Shown: one piece after another, positions 1-22,595 of the stretch
Numbering within the stretch: position 1 is the first letter of the stretch
How the letters are laid out: each line of letters begins with the position of its first letter
Notes under the pieces: generated by a model
The model's input: the letters and a program-made list of their open reading frames with translations, nothing else
The model's database searches: none
What the model was told of the DNA's origin: nothing
Virus record (IMG/VR): IMGVR_UViG_3300042446_003457
Location: 1-22,595 of that record
Length of the DNA stretch: 22,595 nt
Origin: a virus
Reading direction: 5' to 3' (one strand)
Program-made: the position numbers and the translations under genes

Positions 1-629
1 TCATACCTTCCAAACCAATTGTTCCTTTCTTCTTCACTTGGTATTCCAAGAGCAACAACCCTGAAATATTTAGGATTCATATATTCAATGAATCTTTTTA
101 TTGTCGAACCTTTTCCAGCAGAATCCCTACCCTCAAATACAATTGCAACTTTTTTATTATTCTTAACAACCCACTCTTGTAGTTTCATTAATTCAACTTG
201 AAGTCCAAATTTCTCTTTTTCGTATTTTTTTCTTGGCAGAATTGAATATTCTCCCTCAAATTCATCAAAATGATCATCATCACTTATTTCTTTTTGACTA
301 TTCAATCTACTTTCTAAAGAATTTAAATATGAATCTATTTCATTTGAAATTCTTTCTTTTATGTTACTTCCTTTAAGTGAAATTATCTGATATAACTTTC
401 TAAGTAGTGCTTCTATATTCAAATCTCTAATAACATCCTCGCCAAACTCATCTTTTAAAAGATCTAATTCCTCTTTAACATCTATATTTGAATTGATTTC
501 TATAAGATTTAACAACTTAAATCTCATATCATTAATTATCCTTGATAAATTTTGGACAATTTGATTCACACCATCATCATCTCCAATAGAAGCAGACTCA
601 TTAAAAATTTTATAATTAAATATTCTCAT
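1..629 (-). CDS. ppk2: PPK2-family polyphosphate kinase with N-terminal tag and extension (3' end outside window)
   Basis: The gene reads leftward from ATG 629 and runs off the window; 209 residues are visible. The last 70 or so match the polyphosphate kinase 2 core: LQVELMKLQEWV, then the Walker A region FEGRDSAGKGSTIKRF (about residues 164-179), then YMNPKYFRVVALG and a PSEEERNNWFGRY block, in family order. PPK2 enzymes move phosphate between polyphosphate and nucleotides. Walker B and the lid lie beyond the edge, so the nucleotide class cannot be judged. Ahead of the kinase is an acidic, helical extension of about 135 residues that normal PPK2 lacks. It opens with MRIFNYKIFNES, the N-terminal tag shared with other genes here. 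A TTAATATATA element sits 5 bases before the ATG. The fold is secure; a role inside the virion is inference. Confidence 0.88.
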   Translation of the reverse strand, partial: MRIFNYKIFNESASIGDDDGVNQIVQNLSRIINDMRFKLLNLIEINSNIDVKEELDLLKDEFGEDVIRDLNIEALLRKLYQIISLKGSNIKERISNEIDSYLNSLESRLNSQKEISDDDHFDEFEGEYSILPRKKYEKEKFGLQVELMKLQEWVVKNNKKVAIVFEGRDSAGKGSTIKRFIEYMNPKYFRVVALGIPSEEERNNWFGRY

Positions 630-634
630 AGTAT

Positions 635-644
635 TATATATTAA
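635..644 (-). promoter_or_regulatory. TTAATATATA element of the ppk2 gene
   Basis: On the minus strand TTTTAATATATA ends 5 bases before ATG 629. That is too close for a usual leader if it is a -10 box. Confidence 0.5.
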
Positions 645-717
645 AATAAAATCTATATTTCCATATATTTATTTCATTTGATTCATTAATTTGATTAAAC
701 TTTAGTATCCTCACCAT

Positions 718-1623
718 TTAAATTTTTTTATCAAAAATATAAAGATCATAGATGCTATTGCCCTTTACATTTTTTATACTTTTCAATACTTTACCAGTTG
801 TTGAGTCAAGTACTTTAAAAACACCAATATTATTTCCCTTATCAGTAAGTACTTTTACGGTGTTGCCAGGCTCTCCAAGCGCACCAAGTATAGCAATATA
901 CTGATTTCCATAAATACTCTTTAAAAATGATATCCTTAGACTTTCTGAATCTTTCAAATTGTTTATATAAGGATTCTCAACTGCTTTCAATAGATCAAGT
1001 TTAGTATCAGTTGCTTTTATTCTAACAGTAGCGAATTTCCTTTCTTCTGTTCCAAGTGATACTTCATCTCTATTCTGAATCGCATTCTGCTGAACTAATT
1101 TCTGTTGATTCCTTCTTATTTGATTAAAATCTGCTTTAGCTATTATACCACCTCTCATTCCCTTATCATTCATATTATAACCAGCAGGAGGCAACCTATA
1201 AAAAGAACCAGTAAAAGTCATAGATAATATTCTATCAGCTCTGAAAAGTCTCCATATCTTATTAATATGCCTTCTGTTTGATACAGACCAACCGTTTAGG
1301 TGCCATCCCCTTATAAGCGTTTTTCCTTTTGAGGAACGTCCAATTACCATCGGATAGATAACCCTTTCATGTCCAGCAAAATTTTTATCTTTTTCTCCTT
1401 TATAGTTAATAAGGAAAACAAGGCCATATTCAATTGCTTTAATTATAAGTTTTTCATCGTACTTAATTGGCTCATTTACAGGAATTTTCTCAAATCCTTT
1501 AAATTTCTTTAAAGAAAATCGTGGAATAAATTCTCTATCCTCTTTAAGGTCATTATAAGTTTCTTTTATGATATATTCTATTGGTTTATTATTATAGAAT
1601 GTTTTTGTCTGTGTGAAATTCAT
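718..1623 (-). CDS. WYL-like domain protein
   Basis: 301 residues. Residues about 55-150 resemble the WYL-like fold of phage and bacterial proteins: an IEYGLVFLINYKG strand, then RVIYPMVIGRSSKGKTLIRG, a WHLNGWS block, KIWRLFRADRI, and a conserved TFTGSFYRLPPAGYNM segment. Residues about 220-301 look like a separate small beta-rich domain. WYL domains usually sense ligands or nucleic acid in transcription and defence regulators. No helix-turn-helix is evident here, so the role is open and it could be a virion protein. The ATG overlaps the stop of the upstream GIY-YIG gene by one base (TAATG), which suggests translational coupling. The ATG sits in a 13-base sequence repeated at the GIY-YIG start. 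Confidence 0.7.
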   Translation of the reverse strand: MNFTQTKTFYNNKPIEYIIKETYNDLKEDREFIPRFSLKKFKGFEKIPVNEPIKYDEKLIIKAIEYGLVFLINYKGEKDKNFAGHERVIYPMVIGRSSKGKTLIRGWHLNGWSVSNRRHINKIWRLFRADRILSMTFTGSFYRLPPAGYNMNDKGMRGGIIAKADFNQIRRNQQKLVQQNAIQNRDEVSLGTEERKFATVRIKATDTKLDLLKAVENPYINNLKDSESLRISFLKSIYGNQYIAILGALGEPGNTVKVLTDKGNNIGVFKVLDSTTGKVLKSIKNVKGNSIYDLYIFDKKI

Positions 1624-2528
1624 TATCTATTTATCATTTTAATTATATTGTTTATTCTCAATCCTTTTTCTTTTACTAAATGAAGTATATTTTTATACAT
1701 ATTTCCTTCAAATTCTATTTCAGAATCCATTAAATCAATATATTTTTTAAAATTACTATTTATTATTTCATCGAATTTAAGTTTATCTGTATGCCATTTA
1801 TATCTCCATAGATATCCAGATGTGTGGAATCTTTTCCCCATACAAACACTATTTATTTTTGATAGGTTTGCATTATTTTTTATTGCAGCATCTGTAAGAG
1901 AATCATATTCTACTATACTATTATTATAATCTATTCGTTCTACTACATATTGCTTTTTATTTCTTTCTCTTTTTTCAAACTTTTCGTTATGATATAAAAA
2001 AATAAAATTGTCTTTAGATATTTTAATTGATCCACTACAAAAACTGCTTATTGTTTGAGGTAGGATATTATTTTTTTCACCAGCTTCTTTTACAGATTCA
2101 TATTCTTCTAATTTATTGCCTTCTAAATCGTATTTTATAACTCTTTTATTTAACTTTTTTTTAAAATCTTCTTTGTGTTTATATCCAAGAAACGTTTCTC
2201 CTCCTTTTGAAAAATTTAAAAGAGGTCCACTATTTCTTATTTTTCTTCCTATTATATTTATTAATTTTATTTCTAAATTTAAGGCATCACTATTTGAAAT
2301 TTCTTCTTTTATCTTAATTATTATAGGGATCAATCCACTACCAATTATTTTTTTTATCTTATTTTTCTTTAGTTGATTGTGTTCATTATTAGGATCCAAA
2401 TGTCTTATCATTCTTGAATTTTTTCCTTTTCCTATATAAAATGGCTCATAATCAAATTCAATGTCCTCATATTTGAACTTTCCTGGATTTCTTGGATCTA
2501 AATAAGCATATACATAATAGATATTCAT
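1623..2528 (-). CDS. GIY-YIG homing endonuclease with NUMOD-like repeats
   Basis: 301 residues. The N-terminal nuclease shows YVYAYL (residues 5-10, the GIY position), FYIGKGKNSR (30-39, the YIG position with the catalytic Arg) and, further on, LNLEIKLINIIG, which carries the likely catalytic Glu. The C-terminal part holds two NUMOD1-like DNA-binding repeats. The first, at about 130-180, starts VIKYDLEGNKLEEYESVKEA; the second, at about 193-245, starts VERIDYNNSIVEYDSLTDAA. Such free-standing endonucleases spread by cutting related genomes and are common in large phages. The gene lies between a TTAATATATA element, 4 bases before its ATG, and the WYL-like gene. The start contexts of these two genes are identical over 13 bases, as if the element had entered at the start codon of the WYL-like gene. 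Confidence 0.9.
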   Translation of the reverse strand: MNIYYVYAYLDPRNPGKFKYEDIEFDYEPFYIGKGKNSRMIRHLDPNNEHNQLKKNKIKKIIGSGLIPIIIKIKEEISNSDALNLEIKLINIIGRKIRNSGPLLNFSKGGETFLGYKHKEDFKKKLNKRVIKYDLEGNKLEEYESVKEAGEKNNILPQTISSFCSGSIKISKDNFIFLYHNEKFEKRERNKKQYVVERIDYNNSIVEYDSLTDAAIKNNANLSKINSVCMGKRFHTSGYLWRYKWHTDKLKFDEIINSNFKKYIDLMDSEIEFEGNMYKNILHLVKEKGLRINNIIKMINR

Positions 2529-2532
2529 TATC

Positions 2533-2542
2533 TATATATTAA
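2533..2542 (-). promoter_or_regulatory. TTAATATATA element of the GIY-YIG gene
   Basis: TTTTTTAATATATAGATAATG on the minus strand; 4 bases separate the element from the ATG. If the endonuclease invaded here, this may originally have been the WYL-like gene's promoter. Confidence 0.5.
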
Positions 2543-2554
2543 AAAATTTTTTGC

Positions 2555-2587
2555 ATAAAAAAACCTCCACTTTGGGAGGCCTTTTTA
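2555..2587 (-). terminator. Rho-independent terminator of the lipoprotein gene
   Basis: Read on the minus strand: a CCTCC/GGAGG stem (plus-strand arms 2564-2568 and 2575-2579) with a 6-base loop, followed by seven T. A/T pairing on both sides extends the stem and could make it work in both directions. It lies between the end of the lipoprotein gene (2606) and the promoter of the GIY-YIG gene, so the two are separate units. Confidence 0.85.
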
Positions 2588-2605
2588 ATTTGATGTCTTT
2601 TTAGA

Positions 2606-2776: not shown

Positions 2777-2801
2777 TATTTTTTCTTTTTTGATTTTTTA
2801 T

Positions 2802-2813: not shown

Positions 2814-2865
2814 TAATACTATATATAAAGAAATTATTGTTTGTTTTAAAAATAATATATTTTTT

Positions 2866-2875: not shown

Positions 2876-2885
2876 TACTACTATT

Positions 2886-4299: not shown

Positions 4300-4309
4300 T
4301 TAATATATA
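4300..4309 (+). promoter_or_regulatory. TTAATATATA element of the gene at 4319
   Basis: TATTTTAATATATA ends 9 bases before ATG 4319. Confidence 0.5.
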
Positions 4310-4318: not shown

Positions 4319-4588
4319 ATGGATAATTTAAAAGGATTTTCAGAATTTAATTTAAAACATAAGTTAACAGCAGAATCATATGTTGAAAATAATATCAGAC
4401 AATTGATTCAAATTATGAATATTGAAGAAGAAGACTATGATTCTATTGATGAAATAAAATCTGACTTAGTGAAATACTTTACTAAATTCCCAGATCAGAT
4501 AACAGGATATCAATTGAAAACAACCGGTTATCCAAAACATATGAAATTAAGTACCAATAATATAGGAGGAGTTATAAAATATAGATAA
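4319..4588 (+). CDS. small unknown protein with a tag-like N-terminus
   Basis: 89 residues, with no recognised family. It begins MDNLKGFSEFNLKH, which fits the pattern of a short basic/hydrophobic start followed by a Phe-x-Glu-Phe core seen in other tagged proteins here. The middle is acidic and helical (NIEEEDYDSIDEIKSDL); the end is basic (STNNIGGVIKYR). There is no membrane segment. It has its own upstream element and converges on the gene ending at 4589 with no gap, so transcription from the two sides meets here. Confidence 0.7.
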   Translation: MDNLKGFSEFNLKHKLTAESYVENNIRQLIQIMNIEEEDYDSIDEIKSDLVKYFTKFPDQITGYQLKTTGYPKHMKLSTNNIGGVIKYR

Positions 4589-4788: not shown

Positions 4789-6015
4789 TTATTCAAATAA
4801 ATCTTCTGCGTCAAATGAATCACCATCATAATCAGTTGTTTCATCATCTTCAATAATTGAATTGAAATTTTTCTCAACTTCTTCAACTTCTTCAATCGAT
4901 TTGAATCTGAAATAATCATTTACTATTGGTTCCATTTTTTTTAAAACTTCTGATGTAAATACTTCTTGCGTAAATAATTGTTTAGTCGTTACTGATTTTC
5001 CCAAATGTGATACAAACCAACGGTTTCCTCCTGGTTTAAAAGTTATCTCACCAGTTGATTTATCTACTTCTTCTTTACCCTTTGCAATTCCTATTTTATC
5101 ATAATATTCCGGACGACAGAAGGCATCTAATCCAGTAAAGGAATTCATGCCAGTTGCAAAAGATATATCAAATCTTATTTTTTTAGGTTTTGCTAAACGA
5201 TTTTTTTGTGTTTTAAATAAAACAGTAATACCTGATTGTCCTAAATCCATATCATCTTCTTCACCAGTTTTCAATTTTGATTTGGTCATAAATCCAATAA
5301 CTGAAGCTGAATATAAAAGTGATAAACCTCCTTTCATGACTGCTTGTGGGAAAAGATCCATCGTCAAGTATGTATGGTTACACACAATCATAGGTATATC
5401 TAAGTATCCAAGATCATTATTAATAGATCGAAACATAGAACCAATTGCTTTTGCTTTGGTCATATCTTGTTTAATTTCACCTTTTAATAAGTCAGCTTTT
5501 TCTTTATTAGAAGCCATTTGTCCTAATGAGTCAAGTACAATCATTAATTTAGGCAATTCATATCCTGCTAATTTTTGTTCTTTTAATTCATCTACTAATT
5601 GAGTTAATGTTATATTAATATCTTCAACTTTATTTGATCTAACCAATCTAAATTTATCTAAGTCGTTACTTACTCCGAATTTTGGCAAATCTTCTAGATC
5701 GACAGCTTGTTCTGTATCAATATAAATTATTGAGTATCCAGATTTCTGAGCATTTTTAGCCACAGAGTATGCTAAAAATGATTTTCCTGAGCCACTTTCT
5801 CCTGCAAAAACACTAATACGGTTAGTTGCAACACCACCATTTAATAATCTACCAGACATTGCAGCATCTACTATGTAGACGCCTGTTGATATAAACTTTT
5901 TCTCTTTTATTTCTTTTTCAATTTGAATTGGAATTGACTTAGAGATGTTATCCAAAATCGATCCAACTTTTGAGAATTCAAACCTTTTTACTTCTTTTGT
6001 TTGTGTTTTAGCCAT
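4789..6015 (-). CDS. uvsX: UvsX-type RecA-family recombinase
   Basis: 408 residues, close to T4 UvsX (391). The RecA core is clear: the Walker A region AGESGSGKS (71-79), IIYIDTEQAVD after it, Walker B LMIVLDSLG (157-165), and conserved MVCNHTYLT-type and MKGGLSLLYSAS stretches typical of UvsX. The C-terminus is very acidic (from about residue 370), as in T4 UvsX, where this tail tunes DNA binding. The protein catalyses strand exchange in phage recombination-dependent replication and repair. There is no inserted intron or intein. Its promoter-like element lies 20 bases upstream of the ATG. A G/C-tract inverted repeat separates it from the divergent endonuclease gene. Confidence 0.95.
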   Translation of the reverse strand: MAKTQTKEVKRFEFSKVGSILDNISKSIPIQIEKEIKEKKFISTGVYIVDAAMSGRLLNGGVATNRISVFAGESGSGKSFLAYSVAKNAQKSGYSIIYIDTEQAVDLEDLPKFGVSNDLDKFRLVRSNKVEDINITLTQLVDELKEQKLAGYELPKLMIVLDSLGQMASNKEKADLLKGEIKQDMTKAKAIGSMFRSINNDLGYLDIPMIVCNHTYLTMDLFPQAVMKGGLSLLYSASVIGFMTKSKLKTGEEDDMDLGQSGITVLFKTQKNRLAKPKKIRFDISFATGMNSFTGLDAFCRPEYYDKIGIAKGKEEVDKSTGEITFKPGGNRWFVSHLGKSVTTKQLFTQEVFTSEVLKKMEPIVNDYFRFKSIEEVEEVEKNFNSIIEDDETTDYDGDSFDAEDLFE

Positions 6016-7804: not shown

Positions 7805-10657
7805 ATGCCATTAAATCAAGGAACATTAATTTCATCACCTATAAGGCCACTTTCGCCTGGCATGACAATTGCGACTGCTTTATCCAATGAGATCTTAGGT
7901 GGATTGCATTCAGTGCAAACTCTATCTGATAGAGATCTTATAACAACTGATAGAAGACAATTCGGAATGTTGGTTTATATTATAAATGATGATGATTTTT
8001 ATCAATTAAAACAAATAAGTTCACCTGATATTTCGGATAACTTAAACTGGGATATTATAAATATATCTGGTGTCCCAACAACTACTGAATGGTTAGATTC
8101 GGTTATATCTATAAGTGGAACACCTCCAGGATCGCCTACTATTGGTGATAGATACTTAGTTAGTTCTGGATCAGGTCTTTGGTCGGGTCTTGATGATTAT
8201 ATTGTTGAGTGGGATGGTTCAAACTGGAACCCAACTATACCAACTGAAGGTACTACGATAAGAGTTGATGATGATACTGATGCTATATTTTCATTTATAC
8301 AAGGAGTATGGACGAAATATGAGTTTGTAAAAGAGCCTTGGACTCTTAGATATGATGTGCCTTTAGGACTTACTCTAAGTGTAAGTACTGGTTCTCAGTA
8401 TCTTATCTATGGTGATCTTAATGTTGATGGTGGAATTGATTCTTGGGGAAATATAACTATTTTGAATGGTCAATTAACAGGATCTGGTTCGGTTGCTACT
8501 TTCAGTTTTGGAACTTTGCAACAGATTGAATTATTAACAGAGATAATTGGAGCAACTGGAATAACAATATCAACTGGTGGTTTAGGAGAAAGAATTATAT
8601 CAGCAAATTTGATTGCTGGAACTGGAATATCTTTTTCATATGGTCCTGGAACTGAAATAGAGATAAATAGTGTTTTCCCTACTTTACCTGAGGGAAGACC
8701 AAAATACATAATTGAGTCAGTTGAAACAATTACTGTGCCGGATAATGAGTTATATTACATATATGGTGATTTAGAGGTTCGTGGAACTTTGGATATTGGA
8801 ACTGCTGGTAAAGTTGTTGTAACGAATGGTGCTTTGATTGCTGCGTCTGGTTCAACAATAAATAATGTTGGCAATATTGAGATATATGATTTATTGACAG
8901 TTGCAGATGATAATACAAAAATAGATATATCTGAGATAAAGTATGGTAAAGAAGGTAGAATTCTTTTTGAGAGTGAGTTAAAGTATATTCCGATTCTTGG
9001 TGCTACTGCGAGAGTTGTAACTGAATCAGATGATTTAGTTTATTCTACATCAAGTTCTTATCCTTCATCTACATCATCTACTACTTTTGACAGATATTTA
9101 GGCATATCGGTTGCGGATCCTTTGAAGAAATTACATATAAATGGATCTGGTATATTGATTGATGGAATTGAATCAGAGCAAGATTTGTCATTAGGTGATC
9201 CTAATTGGGCAAGATTTGTTATTGATAGTGGAATTTCGGATACACATACTTTAATGGATCTAAGAAATGATGAGGGGCGTGTTCTTTATGTAAATGGTGA
9301 TATAGATGGTGGATTTAGATTTCCATCAGTATCAATTGGTAAGACACCATCAAATACATTATTTAATGTTTCGGATTATTATGGAAATGATTATTTCAGT
9401 ATAGGAATGACTGGAATGCCAAAAGTTGGAATATTAGAAAATGATAATTCAATTGATAAAGTTGTTGTGTGGGATGATTCAACAAATATATTAAGGTATA
9501 GGGATAATGTAGCGTTAAATGAAACAACACTGAGAAGAAATTGGGCGCAAACCACATCATATACTTTGATAGCGGGAGAAACATCATCAACGGTCTATTT
9601 TTTTGGCAACAATTCGTTTGCAACACCAACAGGGGATATTGTTGTTACTCTTGATCCTAATCTATCTGTAAGTGGGATAAATAGAGACTTTGAATTCATT
9701 TTATCAGACACGCTTAGAGTACATACATCAGGAACTTGGTCTGTTTCCTATGGGACAAGGTTATTGGAGTATGGTCCTGGTAGAATTCCTCCTCAAAAAT
9801 TAAGTTTTAGATGGAGTGATAATTTTAATAATTATCTTGTTACAAGAGAGATATTAAATAGATTAGAGGATGATTTTATAACAACTTCAACATCACTCGG
9901 ACATGATTTTGTTGATACAAAAAGATATATGAAGCAAGGTAATGATTTCTCAGTGAGTTCTATAAGTTCTCCAGGTGTCGGTGGATCTTCTGTGTTTCCA
10001 AGTGGATCTGTAATATTTGTGGAAGATGCTTTTATAATGACAGAAAACGCAATATCAACAACTGGGACATCTTTTATTTCAGTTGGATTAAGTACTGTGC
10101 AATCGTCTTCTTCTGGTGGATCTCTTTCAGGAACATCACCAATATCAATAACACCGTCTTTATCTGAATTTGGTTTATCAGATTCTAGAGAAGTTATAAT
10201 ACCCTATACAAATGTTACTGAAATAAATTCTTCTAAAATAATTAAAAGCCGTTCTAGAGTTGGTACAATAAGATTATCGGAACCATCTATGTTGACAATT
10301 GGATTAAGTGGAAATACAGTTAATGGAGGCATAGTCACAGTATATGTTCCTTATATTGTAGATAATGTAACAAATTTTGGAACATTCTCACAGATACATG
10401 AAAGATCAACATTAACAAGAAATAATATAATAAAATCAGGTGTAGTTAATGGAGCTTCCTTTTCCAGTGGAACTTTTTCTGTTATTTTTACAAGCCCTTA
10501 TCCAAATAATAGCTATTCAATAAACATTTCAGGCGAAGACGCTTTGTCATGGAGTGTAGATTCTAAAGCAAATACACAATTTGTTATAAATTCTAACACT
10601 ATGTCTTCTTTTACAGGAGAAGTATATTGGCAAACAATAACATATGGCGAATTATAA
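7805..10657 (+). CDS. tail-fibre-like virion protein with DUF2793-like region
   Basis: 950 residues with no signal peptide or membrane segment. The N-terminus (PLNQGTLISSPIRPLSPGMT, then DRRQFGMLVYII) is like virion-attached fibre starts. Residues about 100-180 (PPGSPTIGDRYLVSSGSGLW, then YIVEWDGSNWN) resemble DUF2793, a small domain common in phage tail proteins. The middle is Gly/Ser/Thr/Ile-rich beta repeat, including GDLNVDGGIDSWG and GDLEVRGTLDIGTAG, typical of fibrous beta-helical shafts. A segment HINGSGILIDG looks like the structural part seen before fibre tips. The last 200 residues (from about 750) form a probable beta-sandwich receptor-binding tip. It lacks an S74 domain. The likely role is host recognition. 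The gene's 3' end overlaps the convergent gene at 10652 by six bases. Confidence 0.8.
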   Translation: MPLNQGTLISSPIRPLSPGMTIATALSNEILGGLHSVQTLSDRDLITTDRRQFGMLVYIINDDDFYQLKQISSPDISDNLNWDIINISGVPTTTEWLDSVISISGTPPGSPTIGDRYLVSSGSGLWSGLDDYIVEWDGSNWNPTIPTEGTTIRVDDDTDAIFSFIQGVWTKYEFVKEPWTLRYDVPLGLTLSVSTGSQYLIYGDLNVDGGIDSWGNITILNGQLTGSGSVATFSFGTLQQIELLTEIIGATGITISTGGLGERIISANLIAGTGISFSYGPGTEIEINSVFPTLPEGRPKYIIESVETITVPDNELYYIYGDLEVRGTLDIGTAGKVVVTNGALIAASGSTINNVGNIEIYDLLTVADDNTKIDISEIKYGKEGRILFESELKYIPILGATARVVTESDDLVYSTSSSYPSSTSSTTFDRYLGISVADPLKKLHINGSGILIDGIESEQDLSLGDPNWARFVIDSGISDTHTLMDLRNDEGRVLYVNGDIDGGFRFPSVSIGKTPSNTLFNVSDYYGNDYFSIGMTGMPKVGILENDNSIDKVVVWDDSTNILRYRDNVALNETTLRRNWAQTTSYTLIAGETSSTVYFFGNNSFATPTGDIVVTLDPNLSVSGINRDFEFILSDTLRVHTSGTWSVSYGTRLLEYGPGRIPPQKLSFRWSDNFNNYLVTREILNRLEDDFITTSTSLGHDFVDTKRYMKQGNDFSVSSISSPGVGGSSVFPSGSVIFVEDAFIMTENAISTTGTSFISVGLSTVQSSSSGGSLSGTSPISITPSLSEFGLSDSREVIIPYTNVTEINSSKIIKSRSRVGTIRLSEPSMLTIGLSGNTVNGGIVTVYVPYIVDNVTNFGTFSQIHERSTLTRNNIIKSGVVNGASFSSGTFSVIFTSPYPNNSYSINISGEDALSWSVDSKANTQFVINSNTMSSFTGEVYWQTITYGEL

Positions 10658-10915
10658 AAATGAAATAACTCTATTTAAATTCTCTAAATTAAATCCGTGA
10701 AGAGGTTCTCCTCCTATTTTCAAATATTCCTGATAGATTGAGTTATAATCATCGTGGGTGTATATTTCACCAGTTAGATCAGAATATATGACTGATGTAT
10801 CATTTGAACTTATGGTTTTGTTTTTAACTTGAGTATCCCCATAATTTGGACCAAATGATCCAACAAATTCTGTTCCTGAAATTGATTCATTGAATTCCTT
10901 AAATCTTTTAATCAT
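10652..10915 (-). CDS. small unknown protein with N-terminal tag MIKRFKEFNES
   Basis: 87 residues if started at ATG 10915. The frame is open 10 codons further up, but ATG 10915 is chosen because it gives the tag MIKRFKEFNES at the exact N-terminus and overlaps the upstream stop by a few bases (stop at 10908-10910), a normal coupled arrangement. The body (residues 12-87) is not recognised. It contains a Gly/Asn/Thr-rich loop region and a C-terminal helix LENLNRVISFL. The pair 11366/10915 forms a two-gene minus-strand unit inserted between the large plus-strand virion genes. Confidence 0.72.
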   Translation of the reverse strand: MIKRFKEFNESISGTEFVGSFGPNYGDTQVKNKTISSNDTSVIYSDLTGEIYTHDDYNSIYQEYLKIGGEPLHGFNLENLNRVISFL

Positions 10916-11366
10916 TCTTAACTGGTATTTTTTCAAAGAATTCATCTGATGTTTCTAGTGAGTAATTGTCTTTATCAAAGTTATAATTTATCTCATAAAA
11001 GAAATTATCTTTTAGTTCTAATTTTTCACCACCGGAAACTTCTATTATGATCTTTTCGTTTTCATAATTCTTTTCAATCTTCTTTATGGGAAGTCCAATT
11101 GTGCCATTTCTATCAGAAATGTTGCATATTATTTTTTTATTTCTTTCTAAAAGTGTTATAATTTGATTGAATGTTGAATTTGCTGTAAGCATCTTTACAT
11201 CTTTAAATTCATCATCTATGATGTTATCATAGTTGTCGAGAAAATTCTGCTCACGACTAGTTATTGATACACCTTTGTTCATCTTATCAAGTATTGAATT
11301 AAGTTTAGAATCTTTGAAATAAGATTCTTTCAAACTGAAATAGGAAAGGAATTTTTTAAAGTTCAT
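10908..11366 (-). CDS. unknown protein with tag-like N-terminus
   Basis: 152 residues from ATG 11366 (MNFKKFLSYFSLKESYF), or 159 from ATG 11387. The inner start is preferred because it puts the basic-aromatic tag (FKKFLSYF, then KES) at the N-terminus and because the TTAATATATA element ends only 4 bases before ATG 11387, leaving no leader for it. The body is charged and mixed alpha/beta, with strands around KIICNISDRNGTIGLPIKKI and IIIEVSGGEKLELKDNFF that suggest a small beta-barrel. No family is recognised. It overlaps the next gene by 8 bases. Confidence 0.7.
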   Translation of the reverse strand: MNFKKFLSYFSLKESYFKDSKLNSILDKMNKGVSITSREQNFLDNYDNIIDDEFKDVKMLTANSTFNQIITLLERNKKIICNISDRNGTIGLPIKKIEKNYENEKIIIEVSGGEKLELKDNFFYEINYNFDKDNYSLETSDEFFEKIPVKND

Positions 11367-11391: not shown

Positions 11392-11401
11392 TATATATTA
11401 A
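11392..11401 (-). promoter_or_regulatory. TTAATATATA element of the 11366/10915 pair
   Basis: CTTTAATATATA on the minus strand, 4 bases before ATG 11387 and 25 before ATG 11366. The second distance matches the long-spacing class and supports the inner start. Confidence 0.5.
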
Positions 11402-16333: not shown

Positions 16334-16993
16334 ATGAAAGAAAAATTTGAAAATGTAGTGAATAAACCAGAGTTGACATTCTTTGAAAATGAAGAAATGT
16401 TTAGAATAATGGATTTTGATGTTGAATCTAGTCTAGATTCTAAAATGGAATCTGTAGAAAAATACATGAGTGACAACAATGGAGTTGGAATGAGTGATAT
16501 AGAGAAGGATTTGATTTATGCAAATGCTCAATCACTTTATGTAGATTATAAGAATGAGCTTAGAGAAGCAAAATTCAATTTCTATTTTAATCGACCACAA
16601 TACAATCTTCTTAGTGATTTATTGTTGAAAAAATTAGAATTTGATGTTAATACACTTTTTGTGGCATTGGAATTGGATAATATGCTAAAGTCTATATACG
16701 ACACTAAATTTAAGAATGATAGTGAGCTTGTCGCGGTTAAGATGAATGCAACCGAATTGACATATGTTTATCATCTTATACAAGGTTATAAAGTAAAAGG
16801 TCTTACAAAAGAAGCTCGTACTTTTGCTTCACTTCTAAATAGAATCGGAGATGCTTCTAAGATAATCAACTATTATGACGCAAAAGCAAAGTCTTTGGTA
16901 GAAGATATTCAAAAATGGGCACTTACTTTAGATGGAAGTGATCTCCTTATGGCTGAAGTTCTACCAACAAACACAGAGACAATTGATGAATGA
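16334..16993 (+). CDS. unknown 219-residue helical protein
   Basis: It starts MKEKFENVVNKPELTFFENE. The FEN and FFENE elements recall the tag motif, but the spacing differs and I do not count it. The rest is helical and soluble, with regions YANAQSLYVDYKNELREAKF and LNRIGDASKIINYYDAKAKS. It has no membrane segment or recognised domain. It is 11 bases after the previous gene and overlaps the next by 8 bases (ATGAATGA), so it belongs to the same transcript. Confidence 0.7.
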   Translation: MKEKFENVVNKPELTFFENEEMFRIMDFDVESSLDSKMESVEKYMSDNNGVGMSDIEKDLIYANAQSLYVDYKNELREAKFNFYFNRPQYNLLSDLLLKKLEFDVNTLFVALELDNMLKSIYDTKFKNDSELVAVKMNATELTYVYHLIQGYKVKGLTKEARTFASLLNRIGDASKIINYYDAKAKSLVEDIQKWALTLDGSDLLMAEVLPTNTETIDE

Positions 16994-17174
16994 TCTAAAG
17001 GATAGTATAAAAAAGATCAAAGAAAAGAGAAAGTTTTCAAAACGGATTCAGTATTCAGAATATATTTCTGAGAGCATTGATAAATCAATTTCTTATACAG
17101 ATTATCTTTCAGAATCATTTGATAAATCAATTTCTTATTCTGAACATTTGAAATCATCAAATGATAATATGTGA
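16986..17174 (+). CDS. small repeat protein with YSEYISES-type repeats
   Basis: 62 residues from ATG 16986, chosen because it overlaps the preceding stop in the pattern ATGAATGA; the longer frame from 16932 would lie inside the previous gene. After a very basic start (KDSIKKIKEKRKFSKRI) come three copies of a unit of about 17 residues: YSEYISESIDKSI, YTDYLSESFDKSI, YSEHLKSS. The same kind of (Y-x-E-Y-(I/L)-x-E) repeat occurs, from memory, in proteins of marine and other large T4-like phages, whose function I do not know. The 3' end overlaps the opposing DUF3008 gene by 40 bases. Confidence 0.72.
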   Translation: MNDLKDSIKKIKEKRKFSKRIQYSEYISESIDKSISYTDYLSESFDKSISYSEHLKSSNDNM

Positions 17175-17409: not shown

Positions 17410-18027
17410 TTACCTTATAGGACAATGTGATGCAGAATATATGAATCTATGATCTCTTTTAATATCAACTCCCATCGATTTAGCAGAAATGTAAATATCT
17501 TGTAAACATTCGGAATCACTTCCTCCGGAAATCACAATTTCTTTTCCATTAATATTTGAAAATAGTTCATAAAGCTTTTTAGGAATATGAAACCAATTAT
17601 GATTATTCCCGATATAAACTATTGCAGTTCCCTCGGTTGTTTTAAACAAATCTCCTTTCTTTAAAGTGTTATTATCTTCTTTTTCTTTAGATTCTTTATA
17701 AGTTTCTTTATCTAAGATTTTTTTATAAAAATCAACATTCACATCATAGTTATATCTTTTTTCGATTATATCTTTTTGGTTTGGAAATGTATAGAGTTCA
17801 TCACTGATTGGAATATCTGGATTATCATCATATAGATAATCTTTATCAACATTTTTGCCTTCATGATGGTTATCGAAAATCTGATATACTTCTGTGAATT
17901 GTTTGCAATATTCCTTTAATTTATGAATATACATTTCTGTAAAGAATGATCGAAATGATCTCTGTACGTCAACAATTATTAGTATTGAATTGTTATTATA
18001 ATTTTCAAATTTTTTTATATATCTCAT
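17410..18027 (-). CDS. tagged isochorismatase-like cysteine hydrolase
   Basis: 205 residues. It starts with the tag MRYIKKFENY, and the enzyme fold begins at once: ILIIVDVQRSF (15-25, with the acidic residue Asp 20), then near the end EIVISGGSDSECLQDIYISA, with Cys 174 where the nucleophile of the isochorismatase/nicotinamidase superfamily lies. The middle (residues about 60-140) is charged and diverged, and I cannot place the third catalytic residue, Lys, with certainty. Family members hydrolyse small amides or vinyl ethers such as nicotinamide or isochorismate. The start follows the stop of the SET gene by three bases, so the two are co-transcribed. The substrate is unknown. Confidence 0.75.
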   Translation of the reverse strand: MRYIKKFENYNNNSILIIVDVQRSFRSFFTEMYIHKLKEYCKQFTEVYQIFDNHHEGKNVDKDYLYDDNPDIPISDELYTFPNQKDIIEKRYNYDVNVDFYKKILDKETYKESKEKEDNNTLKKGDLFKTTEGTAIVYIGNNHNWFHIPKKLYELFSNINGKEIVISGGSDSECLQDIYISAKSMGVDIKRDHRFIYSASHCPIR

Positions 18028-18030: not shown

Positions 18031-18489
18031 CTAAACTATTCTATATTTATTTCTTTTCCAATATTTTTTTCCATAACTAACAAATATTTCCTCACCAGCC
18101 GAAATATCTCTCTTAGCAACCAAAACAACATTATCTTCATCATCCATTGAAATAAACGAATTATTCTTAAATCCACTATTTATTCCTTCTGAATCATTGG
18201 CATATTTAGCAAAACAATCTGATAATTTACAATCTAATATTTCACCAGATGGTAAATTCATGAAATAATCATCATCACCTCTATCAGCTCTGATATCTGC
18301 TTCATAATCTGATAAAATATCTCCTATGAATTTGGATATTATCTCATTTTTTTCTATATCAATTGATGTAAACAATCCTTTTCCGGCATTTGGAATTTGA
18401 GAATCTTCTACATATAAATATTCTGACTCATCTAAATCTATAGAATCAAAGTCAAAATCAAAGTTTTCAAAAGTCTTTAAATATCTCAT
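18031..18489 (-). CDS. tagged SET-domain protein (putative protein lysine methyltransferase)
   Basis: 152 residues. Tag MRYLKTFENF, an acidic linker (11-25), then a compact SET domain: QIPNAGKGLFTSIDIEKNEI (31-50), FIGDILSDYEADIR (54-67), DCFAKYANDSEG (91-102, at the place of the usual RFINHS motif), NNSFI (109-113), VAKRDISAGEEIFVSYGKKY (124-143). The order and spacing are those of SET enzymes, which use S-adenosylmethionine to methylate lysines. ND replaces NH in the pseudoknot motif, as in some diverged members, and there are no post-SET cysteines. Small viral SET proteins are known in giant viruses; in a phage this is rare. A TTAATATATA element lies 4 bases upstream. Activity and target are unknown. 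Confidence 0.85.
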   Translation of the reverse strand: MRYLKTFENFDFDFDSIDLDESEYLYVEDSQIPNAGKGLFTSIDIEKNEIISKFIGDILSDYEADIRADRGDDDYFMNLPSGEILDCKLSDCFAKYANDSEGINSGFKNNSFISMDDEDNVVLVAKRDISAGEEIFVSYGKKYWKRNKYRIV

Positions 18490-18493: not shown

Positions 18494-18503
18494 TATATAT
18501 TAA
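18494..18503 (-). promoter_or_regulatory. TTAATATATA element of the SET/hydrolase unit
   Basis: AATTAATATATATGTCATG on the minus strand: the element ends 4 bases before ATG 18489. Confidence 0.5.
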
Positions 18504-18563: not shown

Positions 18564-19190
18564 TTAAATTGGAAGTTCATCTTCTTCTGACTCTTCTCCT
18601 TCTTCATCTACCTCTTCAAATTCTCCTTGTGCCTGACCTTGACCTTGTGCCTGACCTTGACCTTGTGCCTGACCTTGAGCCTGACCTTGTGCCTGACCTT
18701 GAGACTGACCTTGTGCCTGACCTTGACCTTGAGCCTGACCTTGAGCCTGACCTTGTGCCTGATCTTGACCTTGTGCCTGACCTTGAGCCTGACCTTGTGT
18801 CTGTACTTGTACTTGAGATTGTCCTTGTCCCTCTGGTTGACCTTGTGGTTGAGTTTGCATCTGAGCTTGACCTTGCATTTGACCTTGTCCCTGTGATTGT
18901 ATCTGAGCATCTCCAGTTAGTGCTCCAGCGGGTAACTGATCTACATTCAAGTAATTCTGTGCTATGAATTTAACAATTTCTTCTGCGATGACAACATCAC
19001 CGAATAGTTGTTTAAGATTTTTTCCAGTTGTGTCTTTTACTTTTTTAACATAAGCATTGATAAGAGATTGTGGAATATCAATCATGGTATTCACTCTATA
19101 GATATCATTTACTGTCATTACAGCTTCTTTGATAATCTCATCTCTTCTTTTCTTTGTTTGATAGTTTTCAAATTTTCTAATATGTTTCAT
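18564..19190 (-). CDS. tagged protein with a disordered Gly-Gln repeat and an acidic tail
   Basis: 208 residues in four parts. The tag MKHIRKFENY comes first. A helical domain (about 11-90) includes a KKRRDEIIKEAVMTVNDIYR stretch. From about 98 to 190 the chain is almost only Gly, Gln and Ala (units GQAQ and GQGQAQ), with a few Met, Pro and Ser. The last 18 residues are acidic (EFEEVDEEGEESEEDELPI). There is no family match. The repeat should be disordered, extended and uncharged. The gene has its own terminator and a promoter-like element 23 bases upstream. By the tag it may be an internal head protein; T4 internal proteins are also small and non-enzymatic. Confidence 0.82.
   Translation of the reverse strand: MKHIRKFENYQTKKRRDEIIKEAVMTVNDIYRVNTMIDIPQSLINAYVKKVKDTTGKNLKQLFGDVVIAEEIVKFIAQNYLNVDQLPAGALTGDAQIQSQGQGQMQGQAQMQTQPQGQPEGQGQSQVQVQTQGQAQGQAQGQDQAQGQAQGQAQGQGQAQGQSQGQAQGQAQGQAQGQGQAQGQGQAQGEFEEVDEEGEESEEDELPI
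18624..18900 (-). repeat. short tandem repeat coding for Gly-Gln-Ala-Gln
   Basis: The 6-base units GGTCAA, GGCACA and GGCTCA (minus strand) are shuffled in blocks of 12 and 18 bases, densest at 18624-18810. The plus-strand frame through it (Leu-Thr-rich) is a by-product. Length variation by slippage is expected without frameshift, because unit length is a multiple of three. Confidence 0.88.
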
Positions 19191-19213: not shown

Positions 19214-19222
19214 TATATATTA
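19214..19222 (-). promoter_or_regulatory. TAATATATA element of the Gly-Gln repeat gene
   Basis: TACTAATATATA on the minus strand, 23 bases before ATG 19190. It is the only exact copy with C rather than T ahead of TAATATATA. The leader ends AAAGGATG, one of the few purine-rich (Shine-Dalgarno-like) start contexts in the window. Confidence 0.5.
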
Positions 19223-19858: not shown

Positions 19859-19863
19859 TTTAG

Positions 19864-20298: not shown

Positions 20299-20367
20299 TT
20301 TTATAATATATTTTTTTATATTTGTATATATATGAGAAATGAGCCTCTATTAAAAAAAATATAAAAA

Positions 20368-20886: not shown

Positions 20887-20920
20887 CTAAACTTTTTTAA
20901 AAAATTCAATATAATCACGT

Positions 20921-21202: not shown

Positions 21203-21211
21203 TTTAAAAAA

Positions 21212-22120
21212 ATGAGCGAAAAAGATTTACAAAATATAGAAGAAATAAAAGGTTTTCTAGATGAAAATAATATTGATTATAAAAGAGAGAATTTAAATTT
21301 CTCTTTGTGGCATGATAATCCTGGTGGAAGACGTAGTTATCAAATAGAATATGTTCCTTCTGAGAAATTTCCGATTGCTTATTCGAAATATAATATTGAA
21401 GGAGTTGATAAAAATTATTTTTATAACCTAAGTGTTGAATCTGAGAAGAATAACTCATTTAAACTTTGGATAAAAGATTTTGAGTGGAATGATGAGAATA
21501 AGAAAGAAGTTTTAAAATCATATATCTTACACGCTGCTGAGAAAACTCCTAATCAGTTTTATGCGAGAGAGTGTGAAGTACGAATAGTGGATTCTAAAGT
21601 GGCAAGAGAGTTTGAATCTATAAATTGTTTTTATGGGAAAAGAGGAGCTAGTTTAAATCTTGGATTGTTCACAAGAAAAGAAAAGAACGGAATTCCTGCT
21701 GGAACTTTGGTTATGTTATATACTTTTGGTAAGAATTTCTTTGGAAAGAATAATGATTATATCGAGATCATAAGAGTTGGTACACTAAGGTTTTCTCATG
21801 TATCAGGAGGTTCTTCAAAATTATTGAAACATTTCTTAAATAATCACAAAACAATAAAAATTGGAGACAATGTTGTAAATGTAAAATATATTAAGTTTTA
21901 TTCTGATTATGATCACAATATTGGAAATAGTATGGATAGTTTGGGATTTAAATTTGAAGGATATTCAAAGGGTGGATTCATGAATCTTTGGTTGGAAACT
22001 GGTAAGGTTAAAAATAGAGAACCTATGAGACATAAATGGGTGATGGAACAGATGAGTCTTGGAAATGTTTTGGCTATTCCAAATGCGGGTGTTAAGAATT
22101 ATATTCTAACAGTTGAGTGA
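21212..22120 (+). CDS. GNAT/Mom-like domain protein
   Basis: 302 residues. The first 80 (NIEEIKGFLDENNIDYKREN and on) resemble the small start domain found in front of phage endonuclease-type proteins. From about 125 there is an acetyltransferase-like pattern: a CEVRIVDSKVAREFESINCF start, ASLNLGLF, TLVMLYTFGKNFFGK, a GGSSKLLKHFL helix, YIKFYSDYDHNIGNSMDSLG and FKFEGYSKGG. This VGGSSKLLxHF-xx-YSDxxxxxGNxxxxLGF layout is the Mom/GNAT-like domain seen in phage DNA-modification and homing-associated proteins. The C-terminal 40 residues (NREPMRHKW and on) contain a basic segment. No nuclease motif is recognised. Confidence 0.72.
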   Translation: MSEKDLQNIEEIKGFLDENNIDYKRENLNFSLWHDNPGGRRSYQIEYVPSEKFPIAYSKYNIEGVDKNYFYNLSVESEKNNSFKLWIKDFEWNDENKKEVLKSYILHAAEKTPNQFYARECEVRIVDSKVAREFESINCFYGKRGASLNLGLFTRKEKNGIPAGTLVMLYTFGKNFFGKNNDYIEIIRVGTLRFSHVSGGSSKLLKHFLNNHKTIKIGDNVVNVKYIKFYSDYDHNIGNSMDSLGFKFEGYSKGGFMNLWLETGKVKNREPMRHKWVMEQMSLGNVLAIPNAGVKNYILTVE

Positions 22121-22198
22121 CGAATTAGAAAAAATAGATAAAACAAAATTTATTTCTTATATTTGTTGTTATAAGTAGTTATATAAAAAAATAAAAAT

Positions 22199-22417
22199 AT
22201 GGTAGAAGAATTAACATTTATAGTATTTATAGTATTAATGGGATTGATATTTTTAGTCCTTTATTTTATGTCATTGCCAGGATTGCCACCTGTTTACGGA
22301 AAACAAAGTGATGAAACAATGAGATTACATAGGATGTCTCATAAAATTGGGTGGTATGGGTTTATGGTATATCTTATTGTTTTTGTAGGTGGTTATTTTT
22401 TATATAATTACTTATAA
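22199..22417 (+). CDS. small two-helix membrane protein
   Basis: 72 residues with two membrane helices, about 7-27 (FIVFIVLMGLIFLVLYFM) and about 50-71 (GWYGFMVYLIVFVGGYFLYN), joined by a charged loop with Arg/His (RLHRMSHK). This would put both ends on the same side of the membrane. It could be holin-like by size, but nothing else supports that and no lysis enzyme is adjacent. A host-like TATATTTG box at about 22153-22160 lies upstream. Confidence 0.68.
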   Translation: MVEELTFIVFIVLMGLIFLVLYFMSLPGLPPVYGKQSDETMRLHRMSHKIGWYGFMVYLIVFVGGYFLYNYL

Positions 22418-22423
22418 CGTCCG

Positions 22424-22456
22424 ATGATAAACAATCGTTTTAATGTTGTTTATCAT
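22424..22456 (+). terminator. 11-base inverted repeat followed by T-rich DNA
   Basis: ATGATAAACAA (22424-22434) pairs perfectly with TTGTTTATCAT (22446-22456); an 11-base loop. A run of eight T follows at 22467-22474. It is AT-rich and so a weak terminator for the membrane-protein gene; an operator for the gene at 22507 is the alternative. Confidence 0.5.
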
Positions 22457-22475
22457 TTGTTAACCGTTTTTTTTA

Positions 22476-22485
22476 TTAATATATA
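22476..22485 (+). promoter_or_regulatory. TTAATATATA element of the gene at 22507
   Basis: TTATTAATATATAGAATATAAA; 21 bases before ATG 22507. The downstream bases GAATATAAA are the same as those following the element of the Gly-Gln repeat gene. Confidence 0.5.
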
Positions 22486-22506
22486 GAATATAAAAAAATT
22501 GTAATT

Positions 22507-22595
22507 ATGAAATACTTAAAAACATACGAAGAACTTAGTCCAGAGTATCTAGTTGGAAAAGCAGGTAATAGAAATACTCCACAAGAACAAAGGAT
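22507..22595 (+). CDS. 5' end of a tagged protein, continues outside
   Basis: Only 29 codons are visible. They begin MKYLKTYEELSPEYLVGKAG, the tag in its form closest to T4 capsid-targeting sequences (MKTYQEFIAE). The remainder (NRNTPQEQR) does not identify a family. It is the last complete start in the window and the only plus-strand gene here with the MKYLK-type tag at full strength. Confidence 0.75.
   Translation, partial: MKYLKTYEELSPEYLVGKAGNRNTPQEQR

Follow-up and report, generated by a model that had tools for sequence, protein, structure and literature searches.

The head-loading signal of phage T4 is a short N-terminal sequence in which, according to mutational analysis, residues 4 and 7 decide targeting (PMC9026906, section 2.6). 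The T4 relatives together have at least ten reported Ips (PMC12373910). For SPN3US and phiKZ, passages of PMC5694885 describe several propeptides exceeding 100 residues and a portal protein that is also cut.

The window (the whole stretch analysed, 22,595 nucleotides of IMG/VR record IMGVR_UViG_3300042446_003457) is a piece of a huge phage of Mahaphage type, with LR745206 as its nearest complete genome; LR745206, LR756502, LR756504 and the 735-kb LR756501 were the relatives used for comparison. Judged from their sequences, the largest known bacterial viruses bear the same kind of short N-terminal tag on dozens to more than 100 otherwise unrelated proteins. As this tag resembles the T4 signal, megaphages probably enter their host cells with a large stock of enzymes already made; we infer that the tagged proteins are packaged into the head and injected.

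Tagged genes in the window

The original prediction had read one motif at the start of eight genes, and all eight N-termini are present as read. The genes are as follows (arrows mark cleavage-like positions):

3..629, minus strand: kinase gene of PPK2 type, truncated where the contig ends; tag MRIFNYKIFNE↓S at 597-629
4319..4588, plus strand: gene starting MDNLKGFSEF, doubtful member; profile scores 6.2 and 9.7
10652..10915, minus strand: small protein; T4-like tag MIKRFKEFNE↓SISGTE at 10886-10915
10908..11366, minus strand: tagged protein; tag MNFKKFLSYFSLKE↓S at 11325-11366
17410..18027, minus strand: protein of unknown function; tag MRYIKKFENY at 17998-18027
18031..18489, minus strand: SET-domain protein; tag MRYLKTFENF at 18460-18489
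18564..19190, minus strand: Gly-Gln-repeat protein; probable propeptide MKHIRKFENYQTKKRRDEIIKE↓AV at 19125-19190
22507..22595, plus strand: tagged gene starting MKYLKTYEEL, cut by the contig end; profile scores 11.1 and 11.5, thresholds 5.0 and 4.8

Because the contig stops within the genes at 629 and 22507, each of the two is visible only in part. Scored with the profiles of two relatives, the genes at 629, 4319, 18027, 18489, 19190 and 22507 pass; those at 10915 (3.6) and 11366 (2.8 and 0.8) do not. The latter two starts are internal ATGs of slightly longer open reading frames (10945 and 11387), and homologues in other contigs, their N-termini taken at the Met nearest the window's start, align from the tag onward and show a second, T4-like form with a conserved terminal Glu. 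For the 10915 protein, Glu ends the tag in all ten distinct N-termini shown (of 16 matches, the window's own included), with varying letters upstream; for the 11366 protein, Glu-Ser is found in 10 of the 11 distinct N-termini shown (again of 16 matches including the window's own), the eleventh having Asp-Ser.

Two of the predicted protein labels hold: Pfam PPK2 matches residues 133-206 of the 629 protein (E 8.6e-23) and Pfam SET matches residues 36-140 of the 18489 protein (E 5.4e-14). Several homologues of the kinase retain a tag that ends in (F/I)NE but varies in its letters, others differ there or are without it; the SET protein's homologue in LR756502 has a nearly identical tag. The label 'cysteine hydrolase' for the 18027 protein is not supported: neither a Pfam family over the cut-off nor, for the predicted structure, a PDB match reaching E 0.001 was found. 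Its tag is kept in LR745206 and LR756502; the gene caller placed its start downstream of the tag (17934), and the homologues in the two complete genomes begin at the tag. In a predicted structure of moderate quality (the best of five models, pLDDT 73, the others 46-60), tag residues 1-10 have pLDDT values under 50 and no fixed structure, the first strand beginning at residue 14. Homologues of the 19190 protein have IIKE↓SV (LR745206), IIRE↓SV (LR756502), MVKE↓SA (LR756504) and PLTE↓NV (LR756501). Membership of the 4319 gene in the tag family is doubtful, since its homologues keep no cleavage-like end and two are without the stretch.

Recurrence and form of the tag

A genome-wide search for proteins with such starts showed that the tag recurs across the complete relatives. 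Profiles built per genome at a 5% false discovery rate, seeded with a loose core pattern, flagged 138 of 814 genes in LR745206 (6.0 for shuffled N-termini), 158/778 in LR756502 (5.7), 67/736 in LR756504 (3.2) and 58/903 in LR756501 (2.4). Internal methionines matched at rates of 18/2953, 16/3031, 5/2506 and 12/3825, respectively. Run on reversed proteins of two genomes, the same learner 'found' 10 and 11, so about ten tags per genome may be overfitting. Adding the second, T4-like form brings the totals to 160, 176, 77 and 123 in the same order; in genome W01 the second learner drifted back towards the first form, and its 22 additions there are therefore a mixture. A motif-free count in LR745206 gave the start-anchored triple K2-Y3-L4 45 times, 4.5 being expected. 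Paralogy was ruled out as the source of the common tag: by residues 23 onward, the 138 tagged LR745206 proteins fall into 128 families, 120 of them singletons.

Among start-anchored tags of three genomes (106, 124 and 41 tags), position 4 is hydrophobic in 100% and position 7 aromatic in 94-98%, percentages that are partly circular, the profile itself having selected those residues; the same positions emerge from the unsupervised triples, which were not profile-selected. These residues match the T4 targeting determinants. In LR756501 the commonest tag frame is shifted by one residue with its spacing unchanged. Among 31 orthologue pairs tagged in both W01 and W02, residue 7 alone stands out besides Met1 (0.75), the other tag residues being like the body.

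With the profile learner, no tag expansion was found in Lak-A2, PTm1, S-SSM7 or T4. T4 falls below its reach despite having real tags, so the learner detects expansions, not single tags. In PTm1 it flagged 13 of 216 genes with no visible common form. PTm1 is a relative annotated with a fused protease-scaffold gene. Ten large tag-rich contigs include eight without gp23, seven without the protease and seven without a strong UvsX match (one of these, G013, has a weak one), a possible counter-example that we read as fragments; with five markers (gp23, protease, UvsX, DNA polymerase and sheath), lineage genes were found in seven of the ten. By eye, the tag ladder of G012 is repeated in G009, G014 and G015 and that of G010 in G007; the ten are therefore not ten independent phages. 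As would suit soluble cargo, membrane-like segments are rarer in tagged proteins than in others in all four genomes (4/138 v 45/659; 5/155 v 59/608, p 0.009; 3/67 v 43/650; 1/58 v 73/815); the difference is significant in one and was therefore not used as evidence.

Cleavage-like site, protease and promoter

A gp21-like site, (I/L/F)xE↓(S/A/N), is enriched at the end of the tag. Within residues 5-34 it occurs in 65/129 tagged and 105/639 untagged proteins of LR745206 (p 3.6e-15), in 71/153 and 90/584 of LR756502, in 29/66 and 107/625 of LR756504 and, with a weak difference (p 0.011), in 20/56 and 155/757 of LR756501. Most sites lie at residues 8-14, the farthest at about 37. A recognisable site is missing from about half of the tags: in the first 40 residues, none was seen in 59/138, 72/158, 38/67 and 35/58 first-set tags, respectively. 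The same kind of site is present at the N-termini of the capsid proteins (INE↓N, IHE↓N, MNE↓N). By homology, the lineage has genes for a prohead protease of gp21 type and a capsid protein of gp23 type: the protease profile matches T4 gp21 (5jbl) with E 1.5e-8, in 8/10 records PF03420 matches at E up to 1 (over the cut-off in one), and gp23 is over the cut-off in 10/10. The window itself carries neither gene.

A promoter element, TTTAATATATA, is common to the tagged genes and the portal, protease, capsid and sheath genes. In the window, promoter-like TAATATA sequences are found at:

637..643, minus strand: 629 gene, 14 nt upstream of its ATG
4301..4307, plus strand: upstream of the 4319 gene
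11394..11400, minus strand: upstream of the 11387/11366 - 10915 gene pair
18496..18502, minus strand: upstream of the 18489 gene
19216..19222, minus strand: upstream of the 19190 gene
22477..22483, plus strand: upstream of the 22507 gene

As a simple pattern, the element precedes 144/181 tagged genes and 389/1482 others (p 1.8e-44). Median scores with a held-out matrix were 7.0 for tagged genes, 5.4 for T4-homologous virion genes and -0.8 for replication genes (virion v replication, p 2.8e-4; tag v virion, p 0.52); with the simple pattern, the difference between virion (11/24) and replication genes (14/50) is not significant (p 0.19). Some replication genes score high with the matrix: uvsX (8.9 and 8.8 in two genomes), gp52 (5.1-6.1 in three) and uvsW (7.6-8.9 in three). 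The T4 late promoter TATAAATA, considered as the shared element, is not enriched upstream of tagged genes.

Cargo proteins

Recognisable tagged enzymes include a NUDIX protein, a T4-type RNA ligase, a nucleotidyltransferase of the poly(A)-polymerase family and a 2H phosphoesterase-exonuclease fusion; a peptidase, methyltransferases, a lysozyme, SET and PPK2 proteins also bear tags. For one protein the name 'anti-CBASS Acb1' was rejected, as it scores below the Pfam cut-off (23.1 v 27 bits), and 2H phosphoesterase fused to a DEDD exonuclease is the safer label. Enrichment of defence functions is not claimed, the scan having covered tagged proteins. On alignment evidence, the tag is a removable extension on three enzymes: residue 29 of the NUDIX protein aligns to residue 1 of an untagged homologue, residue 20 of the RNA ligase to residue 2, and residue 27 of a glutamyl-tRNA synthetase to residue 3. 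The last, a clearly cytoplasmic enzyme encoded by LR756501, counts against packaging. A tag equally common on cytoplasm-only proteins would have spoken against the head reading, and a check on homologues of T4 genes, which are mostly tag-free, did not bear this out: the first profile flagged 3/64 replication/metabolism rows and 0/23 virion rows of the T4 core homologues. The three are weak or chance matches, one borderline and two lying in a conserved ATPase motif; the second profile flagged 0/64 replication/metabolism rows.

Cultured relative PAU

In Sphingomonas phage PAU (219-kb genome), 18 of 242 called genes start with MKTLxxLYE(S/A) or close variants. Thirteen of these are found no more than 10 kb from the portal-capsid interval (41 genes; p 7.3e-8). 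The region was defined by rule, from portal to capsid gene plus 5, 10 or 15 kb, giving 10, 13 and 13 of the 18 (p 1.3e-6, 7.3e-8 and 3.4e-6); it supersedes an earlier one (99-122 kb, p 4.5e-9) drawn after the tags were seen. PAU gp142, gp154 and gp270 carry the annotation 'internal capsid protein', whose basis is not stated in the part of the record examined; gp152 is annotated 'scaffolding'. Passages of the literature on PAU do not describe these genes as a tag family, and we found no virion proteome of a Mahaphage or of PAU.

Discussion

We think it likely that the tag is a T4-kind propeptide for capsid targeting and that its use has expanded enormously in this lineage. The likeness to the T4 capsid-targeting sequence, seen in the original prediction, is supported by the protease and capsid genes, positions 4 and 7, the enrichment of cleavage-like sites, the clustering in PAU and the shared promoter element. 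Also against this reading, cargo genes are many times more numerous than in T4, and PTm1 and Lak-A2 show no expansion. Under the proposed mechanism, tagged proteins would be made late in infection and attach through the tag to the prohead's scaffold core as the prohead grows. Cleavage after Glu by the gp21-type protease would then release the cargo inside the shell, and DNA would be packed around it. At the next infection the cargo would be ejected with the DNA and could be active ahead of all phage gene expression. Genes from unrelated sources may turn into cargo on gaining tag and promoter. We are inclined, with less confidence, to the broader view that the largest phages deliver a ready-made infection proteome, in which about a hundred enzymes and effectors would share one exchangeable tag, be loaded into the head and be co-injected with the DNA, an acquired gene becoming cargo through a ten-residue tag and a late promoter. 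The functions named for it are RNA repair, nucleotide clean-up, nucleases, peptidases, methyltransferases and kinases.

The tag might instead serve head assembly only, bringing proteins to the prohead core as scaffold helpers or for size determination, to be degraded or retained in the head rather than delivered as active enzymes. T4 IPIII influences head assembly, according to passages of PMC9026906, and one tagged PAU gene is annotated as scaffolding; scaffold helpers, however, need no activities such as those of the recognisable tagged enzymes, and we regard this as unlikely. Direction to some late phage structure or compartment other than the head is more improbable still. The link to the head comes from homology, gene position and the shared promoter element, but the T4-like key positions, the cleavage-like sites and the 13 of 18 PAU genes near the portal-capsid genes all point to it.

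That the shared 5' ends are relics of recombination, promoter and first codons having been copied together with no role for the peptide, would fit the joint travel of element and tag, the adjacency of tagged genes in LR745206 (51 v 23.4 expected) and a moderate departure from the genome's codon use at some tag positions. Yet every synonymous codon tabulated is used at tag positions, in most cases close to its genome proportion, the operon-internal genes at 18027 and 10915 have the tag without the promoter element, and in homologues the Glu persists as the rest of the tag varies; we give this account very little weight. Chance or start-codon composition is scarcely credible: Lys is common after Met in AT-rich genomes, with their Lys-rich N-termini, and a short motif looks simple, but the shuffle, internal-Met, column-shuffle and reversed-protein controls contradict it, as does a comparison in the viral collection, where at least 118 tag stretches have ATG and 15 have ATC.

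If the preferred reading, a T4-kind propeptide on injected cargo, is true, union counts would make virion cargo of about 10-23% of the called genes of four of the biggest phages, and part of the purpose of their very large genomes would be explained. Many unknown genes per genome would gain a function class, 'made late, delivered next time', and virion content would become predictable from sequence. Candidate injected counter-defence proteins would be on offer, together with a large natural set of capsid-targeting tags for loading proteins into phage heads.

With T4 IPI-IPIII and Alt, the system shares a short N-terminal tag on unrelated proteins, key residues 4 and 7 and a gp21-type protease, with an (L/I)xE-type end recognisable in about half of the tags; LR756501 starts such as MKTFNQFINEG are close to MKTYQEFIAEA of IPII and IPIII. 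It differs in scale, T4 having three IPs plus Alt and each phage here 58-158 genes of the first form (77-176 of either form), in the tags being mostly of other letters (MKYLKxFE, MKHLKxYNES, MIKKFKLFE) and in several cargoes being recognisable enzymes. The ejection-protein propeptides of SPN3US and phiKZ are alike in that large phages pack many proteins and the prohead protease cuts N-terminal propeptides; long propeptides, as described in parts of that literature, are not seen here, the visible sites lying close to the N-terminus. In PAU, similar tags surround the portal, protease and capsid genes, although they number only 18 in a 219-kb genome.

Tag counts across the genomes

The tag is real and genome-wide. 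Eight genes of the window, starting at 629, 4319, 10915, 11366, 18027, 18489, 19190 and 22507, had been proposed to share a short amino-terminal motif on otherwise unrelated proteins, and the sequence confirms all eight amino-termini as quoted. The UvsX of the window (4789-6015) shares 84.5% identity with its counterpart in LR745206 (634,780 bp), 78% with that in LR756502, 57.5% with that in LR756504 and 47% with that in the 735-kb LR756501; UvsX relatives are encoded at 52 IMG/VR loci. According to the passages seen of PMC7162821, the Mahaphage clade holds the largest genomes of that study (634, 636, 642 and 735 kb), with Bacteroidetes as predicted hosts.

The original prediction had proposed a genome-wide motif search, and in this search the tag recurs throughout the four genomes. 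LR745206, LR756504 and LR756501 were taken complete, LR756502 to base 640,000 and Lak-A2 (MK250019) to base 540,000; gene numbers are from a home-made caller, which gave 538 genes for Lak-A2. Among residue triples anchored at the start methionine, K2-Y3-L4 occurs 45 times in LR745206 (4.5 expected) and F7-N8-E9 23 times (1.2 expected), while I2-F5-F8 occurs 23 times in LR756501 (1.2 expected). Tags of a first form were collected with per-genome matrices at a 5% false discovery rate. Starting from the T4 form [FY]xx[FY][ILVCN]xE, a second learner added the further genes given in the table.

Tagged genes and cleavage-like sites, [ILVFM]xE[SANG], in four genomes (columns for residues 5-34 and 41-70: proteins longer than 70 residues; last column: all first-form genes; the enrichment is in part due to the tag itself, as in FNES)
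Genome; genes; first form (shuffled); second-learner additions; either form; site in residues 5-34, tagged; same, untagged; p; site in residues 41-70, tagged; no recognisable site
LR745206; 814; 138 (6.0); 22 (a mixture, as the learner drifted back to the first form); 160; 65/129; 105/639; 3.6e-15; 14; 59/138
LR756502; 778; 158 (5.7); 18; 176; 71/153; 90/584; 8.1e-15; 11; 72/158
LR756504; 736; 67 (3.2); 10; 77; 29/66; 107/625; 2.0e-6; 9; 38/67
LR756501; 903; 58 (2.4); 65; 123; 20/56; 155/757; 0.011; 6; 35/58

A separate matrix run gave 142 tagged genes in LR745206, 54 in LR756501 and 57 in LR756504 (the last without 16 kb). LR756501 uses MIKKFKLFE-like and MIKTFDEFINESDY-like tags about equally, and LR745206 and LR756502 mainly MK(Y/H)LKx(F/Y). 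Reversed proteins, treated by the same matrix method, gave 10 (LR745206) and 11 (LR756501) matches; the five tagged genes of Lak-A2 are therefore at background. In this phage, which is without tag expansion, the coding fraction rises from 60% to 87% when TAG is read as Gln, which fits stop recoding.

DNA encoding MKYLK-x-(F/Y)-E, with a sixth codon beginning in A, stands behind ATG in at least 118 IMG/VR stretches and behind ATC in 15 (a complete count); two or three matches per stretch were found in 20 of 80 ATG stretches among those listed and in none of the 15 ATC controls. In each of ten large contigs rich in tags, a looser pattern matches 3-24 times (reversed control, 0). Seven carry Mahaphage-lineage markers; judged by eye, the remaining three seem to have the same tag ladder as one of those seven.

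The tag as a peptide module

When compared from residue 23 onward, 138 tagged proteins of LR745206 fall into 128 families, 120 of them singletons, and 155 of LR756502 into 140. Every tag position uses all of the synonymous codons tabulated, mostly in proportions close to those of the genome and in some cases with moderate departures (Tyr3 TAC 0.32 versus 0.15 genome-wide in LR745206; Lys2 AAA 0.81 versus 0.61 in LR756502), a usage that fits selection on the peptide. Relative to untagged homologues found as reciprocal best hits, the tag is an extra amino-terminal extension: the alignment begins at residue 29 of the tagged and residue 1 of the untagged protein for NUDIX, at 20 and 2 for RNA ligase, and at 27 and 3 for glutamyl-tRNA synthetase. 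Among 378 orthologue pairs of LR745206 and LR756502, both members are tagged in 31, neither in 314 and one in 33, part of which stem from start calls or the second form.

Among the matches listed for the protein starting at 10915, its own sequence included, ten distinct amino-termini occur, such as MIKRFKEFNE|SISGTE, MIKNFKQFKE|SISGTE, MIKKFYQFINE|ISGTE and MILKFKEFNE|ANGIEW; the Glu is constant although the residues ahead of it differ, and the conserved body mostly begins right behind it. In the family of the Gly-Gln protein starting at 19190, the site before the conserved body reads IIKE|AV, IIKE|SV, IIRE|SV, MVKE|SA or PLTE|NV.

Targeting and cleavage

In PMC9026906 (section 2.6), mutants of the T4 IPIII tag assign targeting to residues 4 and 7 and processing to residues 8 and 10. 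Among start-anchored tags, all have a hydrophobic residue at position 4, and an aromatic one stands at position 7 in 97% (LR745206, n=106), 94% (LR756502, n=124) and 98% (LR756504, n=41), percentages that are partly circular as the selecting profile contains both positions. The major capsid protein gp23 is matched over the Pfam cut-off in 10 of 10 records; gp21-type protease matches (E up to 1, mostly weak) occur in eight, over the cut-off in one (Lak-A2). A profile of five protease sequences, from three Mahaphages, the cultured Sphingomonas phage PAU and the further relative PTm1, finds T4 gp21 in the PDB at E 1.5e-8, with two other matches near 0.5. The likeness to T4 capsid targeting that had been suggested is thus supported by positions 4 and 7, by the enriched gp21-like sites and by the gp21-type protease.

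Roughly half of the tags show a recognisable cleavage site. As none is recognised in 35 to 72 tagged genes per genome, cleavage may not extend to every tag. In tags without an early site, [ILVFM]NE at residues 11-35 is enriched in LR745206 (8/73 versus 16/582), LR756502 (9/97 versus 15/543) and LR756504 (13/58 versus 13/586) and not significantly in LR756501 (4/43 versus 31/677); a broader pattern is enriched only in LR756504. The amino-terminal part of the capsid proteins contains SINE|N, QINE|N, QIHE|N or QMNE|N, which may be their maturation site.

Functions of tagged and untagged proteins

A tag equally common on proteins working only in the host cytoplasm had been named as evidence against the original prediction. 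T4 homologues were sought with phmmer, each pairing of a T4 gene with a genome giving one row, and gp17, 18, 20, 23, 25, 54, 4, 5 and 13 made up the virion set. The first profile flags none of 23 virion rows and three of 64 replication and metabolism rows: UvsX of LR745206 (5.2, threshold 5.0) and gp46 of LR756502 and LR756504, where the match is a conserved IRGYKSFGN or IKNFKSFGN stretch. The second learner flags 0/23 and 0/64.

RNA ligase is tagged in LR745206 and LR756502 and untagged in LR756504 and LR756501; one lysozyme homologue of LR756502 is tagged. Pfam scans covered 108 of 111 tagged proteins of at least 110 residues in LR745206 (two cross piece borders; the UvsX row was left out) and 122 of 131 in LR756502 (seven cross borders; proteins of 797 and 544 residues were left out). 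Matches in LR745206 include NUDIX (2), RNA_lig_T4_1, PolyA_pol, PDDEXK_1, NFACT-R, M15 peptidase, Zn_protease and a protein uniting 2_5_RNA_ligase2 with RNase_T; those in LR756502 include NUDIX (2), SET, methyltransferases, HNH, GNAT, phage lysozyme and RNA ligase. Family matches are far outnumbered by the proteins scanned, so that most tagged proteins have no Pfam match, and as the lists cover tagged proteins only, functional enrichment is not claimed. Two loci lie by head genes:
LR745206, 202508-202897 (+), tagged NFACT-R (ribosome quality control RNA-binding) protein directly after the major capsid gene
LR756501, 61904-66169, four genes in tandem near the head gene cluster, about 350 residues each and by eye paralogue-like, whose T4-like starts all differ

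A shared upstream element

Comparing k-mers upstream of tagged genes in LR745206 and LR756502 brings out ATATATA, TAATATA and overlapping words. Where the intergenic space is 40 nt or more, T[AT]ATATA lies 10-50 nt before the start in 144/181 tagged, 11/24 virion, 14/50 replication (including nudE) and 389/1482 other genes; shuffled upstream regions of tagged genes gave 0.22-0.31 in a looser count. With this simple pattern, virion and replication genes do not differ significantly (p 0.19). With a matrix learned from three genomes at a time and applied to the one held out, the medians were 7.0 for tagged (n=181), 5.4 for virion (n=24), -0.77 for replication (n=48) and -0.76 for other genes (virion versus replication, p 2.8e-4; tagged versus virion, p 0.52; replication versus other, p 0.95), and portal and sheath genes score 6.4-9.6 (seven cases scored). 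The split is not clean: uvsX reaches 8.9 in LR745206 and 8.8 in LR756502, three genomes have gp52 at 5.1, 6.1 and 5.1, and uvsW, which is late in T4, scores 7.6-8.9 in three of four; gp17, gp25 and gp4 of LR756502 score below zero. From its presence at head genes, the element is a putative late promoter.

In the window, the element lies 13-34 nt before 629, 4319, 11387/11366, 18489, 19190 and 22507; 10915 and 18027, which both directly follow another gene, are without it. Three window genes were also noted:
11447-15163 (+), 1238-residue protein with long hydrophobic repeats, its carboxy-terminus matching phrog_6121, a virion structural family, at E 1.7e-9; tblastn matches in the phage collection come from four huge-phage records only
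16932-17174 (+), short reading frame with the successive repeats YSEYISES, YTDYLSES and YSEHLKSS in its carboxy-terminal part, which resemble the tag and a cleavage site (LxE|S)
17410-18027 (-), the tagged protein starting at 18027, with conserved VDVQxSF and GGxDxECL motifs, without a Pfam family over the cut-off or, for a predicted model of moderate confidence, a significant PDB fold match

Tagged genes in phage PAU

The PAU portal is 26.5% identical, and 18 of 242 called genes start with MKTLxxLYE(S/A) or close variants. Thirteen of the 18 lie at 99-122 kb (p 4.5e-9, the region being drawn after the tags were seen), in a cluster containing the portal, protease and major capsid genes. The portal-to-capsid interval extended by 10 kb, a simpler rule set afterwards, contains 41 genes, and 13 of the 18 are among them (p 7.3e-8); extensions of 5 and 15 kb include 10 (p 1.3e-6) and 13 (p 3.4e-6). 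In the record notes for 86-125 and 186-219 kb, tagged gp142, gp154 and gp270 are annotated as 'internal capsid protein' and gp152 as 'scaffolding'. Cleavage-like sites in the capsid protein (KLNE|S) and protease (LFE|A) are of the same kind as the tag ends. No PAU virion proteome was found in the parts seen of the open-licence literature, including PMC10537231 and PMC7824862.

Comparison with T4 internal proteins

Several lines of evidence support a targeting role, and the most fitting reading of the tag is a capsid-targeting propeptide of the T4 type. Tagged proteins would be packed in the head, ejected and act in the new host. No description of capsid-targeting tags in huge phages was found in the titles and abstracts of the open-licence papers listed. 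In T4 (NC_000866), gene 61.1 (18966-19130, -) encodes a protein with a capsid-targeting-like start, MKTFKEFIKED; gp61.1 is not named in the passages seen on T4 internal proteins. According to the part seen of PMC5694885, internal proteins amount to about 1,000 copies in the T4 head and Alt to 40. Ip1-3 have the leader alone in common and inhibit different GmrSD restriction enzymes, with at least ten Ips reported in relatives (PMC12373910, seen in part). The huge-phage tags are best read as an expansion of such a propeptide, to 58-158 genes per phage in the first form and 77-176 in either form.
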